Assembly (NCBI GenBank): GCA_029882215.1
Contig: JAOULC010000009.1
Location: 1-64,000, forward strand
Origin: Gammaproteobacteria bacterium
GTDB lineage: Bacteria > Pseudomonadota > Gammaproteobacteria > SZUA-229
Direction of reading: 5' to 3'
Length of the DNA: 64,000 bases
The notes beneath the pieces were generated by a model, which saw only the letters and a program-made list of their open reading frames with translations, ran no database searches and had not been told where the DNA came from. The position numbers and the translations under genes were made by a program. Shown here piece after piece: positions 38,345 through 60,926 of this stretch. Numbering within the stretch: position 1 is the first letter of the stretch; each line of letters starts with the position of its first letter.

Positions 38345-39124
38345 TCATACTTGAGCCGTTTTTTTGGTAACCACCTGTGTGTCGTCAAATTCTGGCATGC
38401 CTTCGGCCATGATGGGTTTGAGTGTGCTTAAGAGAGTTTTGAATAGTGTTTTATTGTTCTGTTCTTCTTTATGCAGTAACTGTTTCATGTGCTCGCGCTG
38501 AGTGGGCATGCTGAAACAGGCCGGGCAGCTGTCGGCAATCACTGGAATCTGATGTTCCTTCACAAAGTCTCTGCTTTGTCTTTCGCGCATATACACCAGT
38601 GGCCTGATGATTCTTAAGTCACCGTCATCATTGGTATAGTGAGCTTTCATGGTTTTGACTTTACCAAGGTGAAAGGCGGACATTAAAAAGCTTTCGGCAA
38701 GGTCGTCAAGGTGCTGACCTAATGCCAGAACGTTGTAGCCATGTTTTCTGGCGGTGCTGTACATGATGCCGCGTTTAATACGTGAACAAAACGCGCAATA
38801 AGATGGCTTGCCCATATGAGCTTTCGCCATCTCCATGATGGGTTCACGCATATAATGATATTCAAGCCCCAGTGACTCGATATAGGGAATCATTGATGAC
38901 GGGTCAAAGTCACCGGCCTGCGGATCAACGGTAATCACGCCAAGCTCAAAATTTATTGGTGCGTGTTTTTGAAAATGGTTCAGTACGTGTAATAAGGTTA
39001 AAGAGTCTTTTCCACCGGATAAACCCAGTAAAATCCGGTCGCCGTCATGAATCATTTTAAAGTGACTAATAGCCTGACCTGCCAGGCGTAAAATTGATTT
39101 AGGGGGTGGAAAAAATTGATTCAT
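38345..39124 (-). CDS. ttcA: TtcA family tRNA 2-thiocytidine synthetase
   Basis: 259 residues. PP-loop ILLGLSGGKDSLTLL, a YCAFCSRIKRG CxxC motif and the third-Cys region DSCPACF provide the adenylation site and Fe-S ligands; FHLGKVKTMKA and IRPLVYMRERQ complete the TtcA pattern. It thiolates C32 of some tRNAs. It is slightly shorter than E. coli TtcA (about 311), lacking mainly the C-terminal extension. Single gene, with the RNA-rich region upstream. Confidence 0.85.
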   Translation of the reverse strand: MNQFFPPPKSILRLAGQAISHFKMIHDGDRILLGLSGGKDSLTLLHVLNHFQKHAPINFELGVITVDPQAGDFDPSSMIPYIESLGLEYHYMREPIMEMAKAHMGKPSYCAFCSRIKRGIMYSTARKHGYNVLALGQHLDDLAESFLMSAFHLGKVKTMKAHYTNDDGDLRIIRPLVYMRERQSRDFVKEHQIPVIADSCPACFSMPTQREHMKQLLHKEEQNNKTLFKTLLSTLKPIMAEGMPEFDDTQVVTKKTAQV

Positions 39125-39263
39125 CTTTGCAGTCTCTGATTAAGCCCGAAACATTATAGACTTAATCGGCCGTGGCCAACATAAAATACTGGTACTGAAT
39201 GTAATCCCGGTGCAAGTGTAATCGGTTAGGTGTTTAGGATTTTGCTGATATTGTGCCAGTGGT

Positions 39264-39300
39264 AAAAAGAAATCTCAGCCTATCCGTGGCTGAGATTTTT
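39264..39300. terminator. terminator-like hairpin between ttcA and the CsrB-like RNA
   Basis: AAATCTCAGCC (39270-39280) and GGCTGAGATTT (39288-39298) form a perfect 11-bp stem with a 7-nt loop. T-runs occur on both strands (TTTTT at 39296-39300 on plus; AAAAA at 39264-39268 giving CTTTTT on minus). Which transcript it ends is unclear: possibly a second small RNA or read-through into ttcA. Confidence 0.6.
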
Positions 39301-39513
39301 GGCTTCTCTGACAGGAGGTGTGTCAGCTTTAATGAAGAATTGGGGTATCTTCATGGCATCCATGCCCTAAGGCATATTGATAATATAGCGGTGTTATTGG
39401 CAGCGATGTCGGTAAAGTCTTAAAATTGAAGATGAAGGTTTCTTGATTTTATGTAAGAAACATCTGAAGAGCAGCGCTGCAGTGGCGTTGTAGTGAGATA
39501 AAATATAGGGCAA

Positions 39514-39712
39514 TAAAAAACCCGGTCAATCCATGACCGGGTTTCGCCATCCTAGCAGACTTGGTGATTAGTCTCGCGCATTTAAGTACGTCCTAGTATT
39601 TCCGCTCGTTCCTTTGAGAGTCTCTGACTGTCCGTAGATTCCTTATCCCTGAGACTCCTCTACTTCCTGATATAATTTAGCTTCCTTGCAGACCTTTATT
39701 TCCTTAGGTCTG
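39514..39712 (-). ncRNA. CsrB/RsmZ-like CsrA-sponge small RNA (putative)
   Basis: About 199 nt on the minus strand with 12 GGA motifs, mostly AAGGA, CAGGA, AGGGA or TAGGA contexts, the hallmark of CsrB/RsmY/Z RNAs that titrate the translation regulator CsrA/RsmA. The 5' hairpin AGACCT...AGGTCT (39690-39711) exposes AAGGA in its loop; GAGTCTC...GAGACTC (39618-39657) encloses three more. It ends in a strong rho-independent terminator. A -10-like CATAAT at 39719-39724 places the start about 39712. No protein frame is convincing. The exact 5' end and function are inferred. Confidence 0.82.
39515..39544 (-). terminator. rho-independent terminator of the CsrB-like RNA
   Basis: On the minus strand AAACCCGGTC (39535-39544 complement) and GACCGGGTTT (39518-39527 complement) form a perfect 10-bp stem with a 7-nt loop that itself contains a GGA, followed by a T-run (A6 at 39515-39520 on plus). 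Confidence 0.9.
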
Positions 39713-39718
39713 GTAAGG

Positions 39719-39724
39719 ATTATG
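39719..39724 (-). promoter_or_regulatory. -10-like element of the CsrB-like RNA
   Basis: CATAAT on the minus strand (5 of 6 to TATAAT), preceded by TG as in an extended -10. The -35 position (17-bp spacer) reads TAGTGA, a poor match, as is common at activator-dependent promoters. Confidence 0.5.
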
Positions 39725-39790
39725 CACGATGCCTTTTGGGATCACTAGGCGTGGAATCGGAACGTACTGTAAGGAAAATGAATCATAGTA

Positions 39791-39808
39791 TGTAGGAAAT
39801 ATCCTACA
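39791..39808. promoter_or_regulatory. 18-bp palindrome resembling a GacA/UvrY box
   Basis: TGTAGG-N6-CCTACA, an exact palindrome in its 7-bp arms (TGTAGGA/TCCTACA), differs from the known GacA upstream activating sequence TGTAAG-N6-CTTACA by one base per half. It lies about 80-95 bp upstream of the predicted RNA start, a usual distance for this site. A weaker TGTAAG-N7-CTTATG follows at 39837-39855. Confidence 0.65.
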
Positions 39809-39901
39809 TCTAGTGAGATATTTCTAAAACGGGCATTGTAAGCATCTTTCTTATGGCTGAGTATGGCATATAATTCTAAAAAAGAATAAAGGAAAGCTAC
39901 C

Positions 39902-40855
39902 GTGCGTAATTATTTATACCCAGACTTGCACCCCTATCACCAACAGTTCTTGCAGGTTGATGAGTGTCACCGGCTTTATATCGAAGAGTCGGGTAATCCT
40001 GATGGTATTCCGGTGGTTTTTTTACACGGCGGGCCTGGTGCCAGTTGCGGGCCTATGCACAGGCGGTTTTTTGATCCTAAAAAATATCGAATTATCCTTT
40101 TTGATCAGAGGGGCTGTGGCCAGTCGATACCGCATGCCAGTTTACAGGATAATACCAGTCAGGAACTGGTACAGGATATGGAGCGTATACGGGCTGCTCT
40201 GGAAATTAAACAATGGATTGTCTTTGGTGGTTCATGGGGCTCTACACTGGCTCTGCTTTATGCTCAGGCTCATCCGAAGAGCGTCCTGGCTCTGGTTGTA
40301 CGGGGTATTTTCCTGTGCCGGGACGAAGATGTTAAATGGTTTTACCAGCAGGGCACCAGCGCGTTGTTTCCCGAGTACTGGCAGGATTTTGTTGCACCCA
40401 TTCCGGAGTCTGAACGCGGCGACATGATTAAGGCCTATTATAAAGTATTAACGGGTAAGGATGATGTTGCGAAAATGCGTGCGGCTGAGGCGTGGTCACT
40501 CTGGGAAGGGCGAACCGCCTGTCTGCAGGCTAATGATGTTGTGATTGATTATTTTTCTGACCCCTATGTAGCCCTGAGCGTGGCAAGAATCGAAGCGCAT
40601 TACTTTGTTAATAACAGTTTTTTGCAGCCAGATCAGATACTAAATAATACCTATAAATTGAAAAATATCCCCGGTTATATCGTCCACGGGCGTTACGATG
40701 TAATTTGTCCTGCTCAACAAGCATGGGCTTTGCATCAGGCCTGGCCAGAGTCGCAATTAAATATGATTGAAGATGCCGGTCATGCAGTTAGTGAACCGGG
40801 TATTACACAGCGACTGGTTGAAATTATGGATGAATTAGCGGTGACACTTTCTTGA
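39902..40855 (+). CDS. pip: prolyl iminopeptidase
   Basis: 317 residues. HGGPGASCGPMHRRFFDPKKYR and FDQRGCGQS, nucleophile elbow GGSWGSTLALLYAQ (Ser in GGSWG), Asp in HGRYDVICP and His in DAGHAVSEPG make an intact S33 serine peptidase triad that releases N-terminal proline. Start GTG 39902 with AAAGGAAAGC upstream. Overlaps dtd by 4 bp (TTGA). Confidence 0.93.
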   Translation: MRNYLYPDLHPYHQQFLQVDECHRLYIEESGNPDGIPVVFLHGGPGASCGPMHRRFFDPKKYRIILFDQRGCGQSIPHASLQDNTSQELVQDMERIRAALEIKQWIVFGGSWGSTLALLYAQAHPKSVLALVVRGIFLCRDEDVKWFYQQGTSALFPEYWQDFVAPIPESERGDMIKAYYKVLTGKDDVAKMRAAEAWSLWEGRTACLQANDVVIDYFSDPYVALSVARIEAHYFVNNSFLQPDQILNNTYKLKNIPGYIVHGRYDVICPAQQAWALHQAWPESQLNMIEDAGHAVSEPGITQRLVEIMDELAVTLS

Positions 40856-46659: not shown

Positions 46660-46770
46660 TATTTATCCGGTATCGGGGGATACGCTGAATTGATTTACTT
46701 CAGCATCATTAGTTATATAATGGTGCGCAGGTGTAAATGAGATCCGGTCTGGTAATATCAATGGGAAGTG

Positions 46771-47904
46771 ATGAATACAGATGTCGAAAAACTAAGGTCT
46801 GAAAAGCTCCAGCTTAAGTGTCAGCTAAAAAGTCTGGTACAAAATGCACGCCTGAATGAAGAAAAAATGCTCCGTTTTTCTGAAATGGAGCTATTACTGA
46901 TTGGTACGCACTCCCTTCGTGATTTATTAAAAGTCATTATTACAACTTACCGCAATGTCTTTGATCTCGATAAAGTATCACTGGTGCTGATTGATCAGGA
47001 CTATGAATTATTACGCTTCCTTGATGAAACTGGTCTGCAGCTGGATCAGTTGCCCGGGCTGAAACTGTTTGCTGATTCAGCAGAACTTGAAGCGTGGTTT
47101 GATCATGATCTGTTACCTATTCTCACTCACTATGAAGCGGGCCATGAAAGCCTGTTTTCGCCGCTGGATAATATCTTGCAGTCGGTTGCCTTAGTTCCAT
47201 TAGTGCGGCAAGGGCGGCTTATAGGGAGTCTTAACCTCGGTAGTCATGAAGCAGACCGCTTTCAGGAATCCAATAGCACGGATTTCTTACAACGGCTTGC
47301 AGCTATCATCTCAATTTGTTTTGAAAACTCACTTAATATTAGCAGGCTTGAGAGAGTGGGTATGACCGACGCTTTAACCTGTGTTTATAACCGTCGTTTT
47401 TTTGAACAGCGACTGGTTGAAATTGTTTCAAACTCTATCCGTCATCAGTATGAACTGAGCTGTATGTTTCTGGATGTTGACTGGTTTAAAACGGTTAATG
47501 ATAGCCAGGGTCATCAGGTAGGAGATCTGGTATTACAGGAAGTGGCGGGAATCATCAATGAGTATTTGCGCGCTGGAGATATGATGGCGCGATATGGTGG
47601 TGAAGAGTTTGTTGTCTTATTACCACAAACACCGATTAGTGATGCATTAGCCGTTGCTGAAAGAATAAGAAAAAAAATGGCATCACATCAGTTTAATCTG
47701 GCGGAGGGAAAGACCCTGTCTTTAACACTTTCAATAGGGGTTGCCAGTATGTGTGTCGGTGATTTGGGACATGCAGCAATCGAGCTCGGGCGTGACTTAG
47801 TCAAACGTGCTGATAATGCGCTGTTAAGCGCGAAATCTTCTGGCAGAAATAAAGTAGTGTCAGCAGAAGAGATGGCAGAAGCAGCCGGTCTGCCTATTTG
47901 CTGA
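46771..47904 (+). CDS. diguanylate cyclase with N-terminal GAF/DUF484-like sensor
   Basis: 377 residues. The first ~30 residues form a coiled coil, followed by a DUF484/GAF-like domain (about 40-190) and a GGDEF domain. The active site ARYGGEEFVVLL is intact (GGEEF), and RAGD five residues before it is the inhibitory I-site RxxD. It should make c-di-GMP and be product-inhibited. Cytoplasmic. ATG 46771 is preferred; GTG 46768 adds one residue. Located 110 bp after tatC. Confidence 0.9.
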   Translation: MNTDVEKLRSEKLQLKCQLKSLVQNARLNEEKMLRFSEMELLLIGTHSLRDLLKVIITTYRNVFDLDKVSLVLIDQDYELLRFLDETGLQLDQLPGLKLFADSAELEAWFDHDLLPILTHYEAGHESLFSPLDNILQSVALVPLVRQGRLIGSLNLGSHEADRFQESNSTDFLQRLAAIISICFENSLNISRLERVGMTDALTCVYNRRFFEQRLVEIVSNSIRHQYELSCMFLDVDWFKTVNDSQGHQVGDLVLQEVAGIINEYLRAGDMMARYGGEEFVVLLPQTPISDALAVAERIRKKMASHQFNLAEGKTLSLTLSIGVASMCVGDLGHAAIELGRDLVKRADNALLSAKSSGRNKVVSAEEMAEAAGLPIC

Positions 47905-58868: not shown

Positions 58869-60926
58869 ATGGCAGCAGGTACAGGTACAGCTTCGGGACT
58901 AAGTAAATTAGAGTTAGGATTGCTAGGGGTCGTAGTAAGTACTCTTATAGCAGCCTTTGTTTTGTTTTTTTGGGCAAGTAGTGAACGTGATACCATTAAG
59001 GTACAACTAGAAATTGTTGCTAAAGAAGCACTGATTTCCCAGCGTTTATCAACCCAGGCCCTTGAGGCAGCATCCGGAAAAGTCGGTTCTTTTAAACAAC
59101 TCGAAGCTTTACGTAATTCATTTGCTGTAACTATCAATCAGTTAAAGAAAGGTGATCAGGGGCTGGGTATAAAGCCCTTAACGGTTGATGCTACTGCTGA
59201 GTTTAAGGCGGTGGAGACTATCTGGTCGAACTATCAGTCTGATATTAACGTTATCTTGGATGGTCTGGAGCCAATTTCAAAGGTTTCAGAATACGTTGTT
59301 GTTATTAATGAATTTATTCCTCAGTTACTGGCTTTTTCAGATGAAGTTGTGGGTATCCTTGTCCGTAAAAATGCCGATCCGCATCAGATATATATAGCGA
59401 GCAGGCAGTTAATGCTGACGCAGCGTATTGAGAACAACCTGAACCTTGTTTTGGCCGGTGGTGAGGGTGCAACAACAGCTGCCGATCGATTTGGTCGGGA
59501 TGCCACCTTGTTTGGCAGTGTTCTGGAGGGGATGTTAAAAGGCTTTCCCGGGCTGAATATCAAGAAAGTTCATGATGCTGAGGTTCGAGATAAGCTACGT
59601 GAAGTAGCCATGCTGTTTACATCGGTAAGTGATCATGTTGATGCAATTTTAGAACTTTCACCTGTCTTGTTTGAAGTTAAGGATGCATCAAGCCGAATGG
59701 AAGTAACAGCTGCCAGTTTGCTTTCAGCAACTGAAAAACTTGATGCCAAGATTCAGTCTGAAGAATATCATCTGGACTATGCTGACTACGCGGTAATCTT
59801 ATTAGGTATCACCGCAATGCTTGCGTTCCTTTATTTTGGCTGGATAAATGTAACGACTGCCAGAGAACGAGAAGAGCTTGCACTTGAACAAAACCGTCGT
59901 AACCAGCGTGCGATTTTGCGCTTACTTGATGAAATGGCTAACCTTGCGGAAGGTGATTTAACAGTTCATGCCACGGTTACCGAAGAAATCACCGGTGCAA
60001 TCGCCGACTCGGTTAACTATGCGATTGATGCACTGCGTTCACTGGTTACCACGATTAATATAACGGCTGTGAGGGTTTCCTCTTCGGCAGAAAAGACACT
60101 TGCAACAGCGGGCCGGCTGGCAGATGCATCATCGCATCAGGCGCGTGAAATTGTCTCGGCATCCGCGGCAATTACCGACATGGCGGACTCTATGGAAGGT
60201 GTATCGAATAACGCCGCACAGTCAGCTGAGGTTGCACGAAAATCGGTTGATATTGCACAGCAAGGTGCGACTCTGGTACGTAACAGTATTACGGGTATGG
60301 ATAGCATTCGTGAACAGATTCAAGAGACATCAAAACGAATTAAGCGACTGGGTGAATCATCTCAGGAGATCGGTGATATCGTTGGACTGATTACTGAAAT
60401 CGCAGACCAAACTAATATCCTTGCATTGAACGCAGCTATTCAGGCATCGACAGCCGGTGATGCTGGCCGAGGCTTCGCGGTTGTTGCCGACGAGGTACAG
60501 CGACTGGCGGAACGTTCATCTAATGCAACCAAACAGATCGAAGCACTGGTTAAAACGATCCAGGCCGATACCAACGAAGCAGTACACTCAATGGAACAAA
60601 GTACATCGGGTGTGGTAAGCGGAGGTAAGATGGCCGAGGATGCCGGTGAGGCACTTACCCGAATTGAGGATGTATCGACTGAGCTGGCAAGTCTTATTCA
60701 GGGTATCTCTGATGCTGCAAGCAGACAGGCTATCGTTGCAACCGATGTATCAAATACCATGAATGTAATACAGGAAATTACTGTACAGACATCTGAAGGC
60801 TCTGAAGAAACATCGAGCTCAATTGGTAATCTGAGTGAGATGGCAAATGAACTACGTAAGTCTGTAGCCGGCTTTAAGCTGCCTGATTCTGGTGATCAGG
60901 TTGAAACCGTTATTTTGAATAGTTAG
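58869..60926 (+). CDS. pilJ: twitching motility chemoreceptor PilJ
   Basis: 685 residues. Membrane helices at about 15-38 ([21 protein letters not shown]) and 300-325 ([20 protein letters not shown]), a PilJ periplasmic domain between them, a HAMP-like segment ([20 protein letters not shown]) and a signalling domain with the highly conserved hairpin tip [20 protein letters not shown]...[19 protein letters not shown]. Senses surface contact via pilin in Pseudomonas. Confidence 0.95.

Follow-up and report, generated by a model that had tools for sequence, protein, structure and literature searches.

Small RNAs that act as CsrA sponges are described in a review as widespread in Gammaproteobacteria (PMC7652899). 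In E. coli, RNase E starts the decay of one of them, CsrB, in an unstructured segment ahead of the terminator, and CsrA bound nearby is protective (PMC5027483). In Marinomonas mediterranea, CsrB and CsrC were first predicted and later shown to be PpoS/PpoR-dependent, and a TGTAGG variant of the GacA half-site has been reported upstream of csrA1 (PMC8523701). The kind of RNA that concerns us is thus already known, since the review calls it widespread (PMC7652899) and the joint use of box, GGA motifs and terminator has found others (PMC8523701). Here we describe a locus in a stretch of 64,000 nucleotides (the whole stretch of DNA analysed, hereafter the window) which, judging from its sequence, we predict with high confidence to encode a non-coding RNA of about 200 nt that would act as a CsrA sponge in the manner of CsrB/CsrC and RsmX/Y/Z, under the control of GacA/UvrY.

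A GGA-rich RNA predicted between ttcA and pip

The locus lies in a gap of 777 bp between a PP-loop protein gene (ttcA-like, 38345-39124, minus strand), which is a separate gene downstream of the predicted RNA, and a divergent upstream gene for an alpha/beta hydrolase (proline iminopeptidase-like, pip; 39902-40855, plus strand). In the list of open reading frames of the window, none of 60 or more amino acids overlaps positions 39125-39901. The predicted RNA occupies 39514-39712 on the minus strand, and is longer than Pseudomonas RsmX, RsmY and RsmZ. Its 3' end is placed by the terminator; at its other end CATAAT at 39724-39719 (minus strand), invariant in eight sequences compared, is a plausible and likely -10 element, and the 5' end is therefore put near 39712.

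The original prediction counted 12 GGA motifs within these 199 nt, and our count was the same, with 8 of the 12 reading AGGA. The density of GGA at the RNA is the maximum of the window on both strands, the plus strand reaching at most 7 and the minus strand averaging 1.4 per 199 nt. When the intergenic region was shuffled 2000 times by dinucleotides, a single shuffle had as many as 12 GGAs. For 11 of the 12 motifs in the RNA an exposed, mostly unpaired state is predicted, and in 27 homologues the GG bases had a mean unpaired probability of 0.54 versus 0.31 for other Gs.

The minimum-energy fold of the single sequence is more stable than that of shuffled sequences (z = -3.3), and the structural elements proposed earlier were all recovered. 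The 5' hairpin with AAGGA in its loop is present as CAGACCT/AGGTCTG, a stem of 7 bp (39689-39713, minus strand) that is identical in four congeners. The second stem, GAGTCTC/GAGACTC, does enclose three GGAs (39618-39658, minus strand) and shows compensatory changes relative to genus g5; the single-sequence fold favours a competing pairing, but the consensus of four congeners brings the stem back. The strong terminator consists of a 12-bp stem, itself with compensatory changes, followed by a T run (39514-39547, minus strand).

A search for paralogues indicates that the RNA is single-copy in its own genome, the locus scoring 102 bits and the next match 20.6 bits; the latter, with two GGAs and no box, was ruled out as a paralogue.

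The upstream palindrome

An exact palindrome TGTAGG-N6-CCTACA had been claimed about 80-95 bp upstream of the RNA. We find this putative GacA/UvrY box at 39791-39808 (minus strand), where it reads TGTAGGATATTTCCTACA with ATATTT as the spacer and spans 79-96 bp ahead of the putative RNA start, with its centre at about 87 bp. It is, as stated, one base per half-site away from the consensus TGTAAG-N6-CTTACA, and the 3.4-Mb genome has no other TGTARG-N6-CYTACA site. Congeners carry TGTAAG-N6-CCTACA, one of them ending in CCTACG.

The box was left out of the covariance models R1 and R2 described below. An exact TGTARG-N6-CYTACA was present upstream in 27 of the 30 loci examined in the order, and boxes with one mismatch were seen at L051, L053, L074 and also L076. 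When up to one mismatch was allowed, all of the 31 in-order loci examined had a box at one of two set distances: about -71 to -73 in genera g8, g10, g12, g13 and g14 (with L074 at -66), these distances being counted from full 5' ends, or about -92 to -95 in genera g1, g3, g4, g5, g7 and g11. The two groups are thus about 22 bp apart, or approximately two helical turns (upstream regions of L046-L075), an offset that we infer to be what a factor acting from one face of the DNA needs. GacA very probably controls the RNA gene, to the extent that this can be read from its sequence.

Conservation and covariation within the order

Conservation of the RNA in relatives, set beforehand as a point on which the prediction might be refuted, was found both in congeners and across the order. 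Three congeners carry the same RNA, with a near-identical RNA body and upstream DNA that has diverged apart from the box; in L013, a record matching one congener, the pip and ttcA neighbours are kept too. A clearly diverged relative occurs in genus g5 (L008, L011) next to the same divergent pip gene, with another gene downstream. Weak blastn matches at L006, L009 and L010 were rejected as terminator look-alikes without GGA clusters or box, and when ttcA homologues of other families (L015 onwards) were included, blast matched the intergenic region in the congeners alone.

A covariance model (R1) built from eight sequences (congeners and genus g5) matches an RNA in 34 of the 54 genomes of the order, which is one family among the genomes compared, and the matched RNAs hold 9-17 GGAs each. 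In the other 20 genomes R1 gave no match, in part owing to filtering and to assemblies that are incomplete; one of them (G011) was later matched by R2. No fewer than 12 genera in the order keep the box along with the GGA-rich RNA, as the surrounding sequence diverges. In one genome of genus g12 (G066) there are two strong R1 matches (C136:3544-3736 and C29:25747-25937, 49.4 and 47.2 bits); the sponge RNA may be duplicated there, in the manner of CsrB/CsrC.

Across 27 sequences, two long-range helices (of the GAGCC/GGCTC and GTAGC/GCTAC types) together with the terminator have 79% standard pairs. Covariation of the helices in this set was 0.312 versus 0.174 in shuffles (0 of 500 reach it) and at most 0.128 when the helices were slid, which we regard as supporting, not decisive, because related sequences can inflate shuffle-based controls. 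The outer helix was also proposed unprompted by RNAalifold on 14 of the 27 sequences. Pairing of a sequence with its own partner strand beats foreign pairing on average (-14.9 versus -12.1 kcal/mol), with an effect that is uneven by genus: it is strong for g13, g14 and g8, whereas g5 and g3 are flat. Some genera have the shifted register TTGGC/GCCAA, and in genus g1 the outer helix appears to be replaced by a local 5' hairpin; the architecture is therefore flexible.

Weak matches in other families

Model R2 gave 13 weak matches in other families (26-40 bits). Ten of them are preceded by TGTARG-N6-CYTACA at a distance of 70-187 bp, and most of the 13 have ATCACC and GGA-rich flanks. R3, a covariance model of the 3' module, added L110, L111, L112 and L114, each with a box. 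Its overall tally of 248 of 369 genomes was rejected as a measure of distribution, since R3 matches ordinary terminators below about 30 bits. Neither can the box serve as a marker by itself: the palindrome class was found in 128 of the 369 genomes of the class, and of the instances looked at across the class, most have no GGA cluster beside them. What is diagnostic is the combination of box and GGA-rich RNA, not the palindrome alone.

Several further loci were noted in the course of these searches. L086 has 16 GGAs in 365 nt and a terminator, with no box found where one was looked for, and L085 has 9 GGAs in 284 nt, a terminator and a TGTAGG-N6-CCTACA box at -165 (families f127 and f105); both are possible further Csr RNAs. 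At L152 and L153, the class-wide palindromes TGTAAGATATTTCCTACA and TGTAAGACATGTCTTACA have 11 and 12 GGAs, respectively, within 150 nt on one side, and these are likely candidates for other Csr RNAs.

A conserved motif ahead of the terminator

Directly before the terminator lies the motif AATCACC (39563-39569, approximate to a base, minus strand), of which the literature consulted here gives no description. Apart from the terminator, no element of the RNA and its homologues is better conserved than the ATCACC core of this motif. The core is near-invariant in the order, one member reading AACACC; E. coli CsrB and CsrC lack it. Its predicted accessibility is average (0.50 versus 0.49 overall). 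The segment resembles the 3' end of 16S rRNA, and the 16S-like stretch at the motif reads AATCACCTCC in L079, L082 and L119; a pairing role suggested by this likeness is a guess. It is equally a guess, by analogy, that ATCACC may mark a site equivalent to the one at which RNase E starts the decay of CsrB.

Rfam and the pathway genes

A search against the Rfam families CsrB, RsmX, RsmY and RsmZ had been proposed as a check; these families do not match, and neither does CsrC. At gathering score, Rfam release 15 has no family that fits either the window or the homologues tested, and at a relaxed E-value the window region and seven homologues gave no Csr/Rsm family, only sub-threshold noise. Since the RNA and the relatives tested go unrecognised by every family of this release, the RNA belongs to the functional class CsrB/RsmZ as an uncatalogued member, outside those Rfam families.

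Both csrA and a gacA/uvrY homologue, which the original prediction asked to be looked for, are present in the genome. There is one CsrA of 67 aa, above curated cut-offs, its gene lying downstream of an aspartokinase gene. A gene for a 221-aa response regulator is located directly upstream of uvrC, and its best NCBIfam match is UvrY/SirA/GacA, with a score of 270.7 bits, just under the cut-off of 280, the next family scoring 152. A BarA/GacS-like kinase was recognised by its sCache_4-HAMP-HisKA-HATPase part, and adjoins a cysteine synthase gene.

We found no support for the suggestion that the locus could connect nearby pil-chp and c-di-GMP genes. Genes for a PilJ-type MCP chemoreceptor (58869-60926) and for a GGDEF protein (46768-47904, plus strand), whose GGDEF domain is C-terminal and follows a DUF484-like N-terminal part, do lie in the window, 7-19 kb away, but because a sponge RNA acts in trans their closeness is uninformative on regulation.

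Discussion

The reading of the locus as the host's CsrA sponge is supported by the co-conservation of RNA and box and by the presence of csrA, uvrY/gacA and a BarA/GacS-like kinase. Counted against it are the box being one base per half-site off the classical consensus, the score of the UvrY/GacA homologue below the cut-off, the lack of a match to Rfam Csr/Rsm families, the palindrome not being diagnostic alone, and the 20 genomes of the order that R1 did not match. The conspicuous ATCACC segment, best conserved besides the terminator and similar to the 16S rRNA 3' end, could point instead to a GacA-regulated base-pairing sRNA, whose AUCACC would pair with ribosome-binding sites and whose GGAs would bind CsrA secondarily. 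We consider this highly improbable, since the number of GGAs per RNA, held despite changes in spacing and sequence, far exceeds what such an sRNA would need, and ATCACC is of no more than average predicted accessibility.

A reading of the sequence as a leader of the ttcA-like gene, or as an element of read-through into it, with no free sRNA being made, is very improbable: the two share a strand, but a strong terminator stands about 390 bp ahead of that gene, and genus g5 swaps the downstream gene and keeps the RNA and the pip side. The palindrome class is frequent among genomes of the class and often has no GGA cluster nearby, which would suit a chance placement of GGA-rich intergenic DNA beside a chance palindrome. 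Yet 31 loci keep box and RNA together with fixed spacing, and the helices covary; this leaves chance a negligible probability, and we count it as refuted.

Returning to the CsrA sponge, we propose that the 221-aa regulator encoded beside uvrC, as GacA/UvrY in its phosphorylated form, would bind the palindrome near -87 and switch on a weak promoter, that about 11 accessible GGAs of the resulting RNA would bind several CsrA dimers, and that the CsrA so bound would be taken off its target mRNAs. Transcription, GacA binding, CsrA binding and the effect on targets are here the inferred steps, set on an observed sequence anatomy, its conservation, the co-conservation of RNA and box, and the pathway genes. 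As the sole copy found, the RNA probably serves the bacterium as its main antagonist of CsrA.

More tentatively, and with somewhat less than an even chance in our judgement, there may be a large uncatalogued lineage of CsrA sponges over several gammaproteobacterial families, having a TGTAGG-N6-CCTACA box and a 3' module (ATCACC, usually a GGA hairpin, and the terminator) with a role besides CsrA binding. By analogy, that role might for example be to set the start of RNase E decay as in CsrB (PMC5027483), or pairing with ribosome-binding sites.

The RNA is ordinary in its mechanism, and its use is that a missing RNA family can be anchored on it. The sequences of CsrA sponges change so rapidly in evolution that they escape the models in the catalogue, and here models from one locus found relatives throughout the order as well as weak matches in about a dozen further families. 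The Gac/Csr switch thereby becomes traceable in uncultured Gammaproteobacteria, and a conserved 3' motif was exposed.

Of the described systems, CsrB and CsrC of M. mediterranea are alike by search logic, having been found through a GacA box, A(N)GGA repeats and a terminator (PMC8523701); expression data exist for those, whereas the RNA here is predicted from sequence. RsmX, RsmY and RsmZ of Pseudomonas share the upstream GacA palindrome, several exposed GGAs and what is here a predicted standalone intergenic gene (PMC2375449), but the box here is mostly TGTAGG/CCTACA as opposed to TGTAAG/CTTACA (consensus in PMC8523701), and their Rfam families do not match. The present RNA differs from E. 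coli CsrB and CsrC in its length of about 200 nt, its 12 GGAs, its ATCACC and its lack of an Rfam match, and the E. coli upstream stretches compared contain no exact TGTA-N10-TACA box. With CsrB and CsrC it nevertheless has in common the many GGAs (22 in CsrB, 14 in CsrC) and the intrinsic terminator, together with the BarA/UvrY-type activation that we expect and the sponge mechanism that we propose for it.
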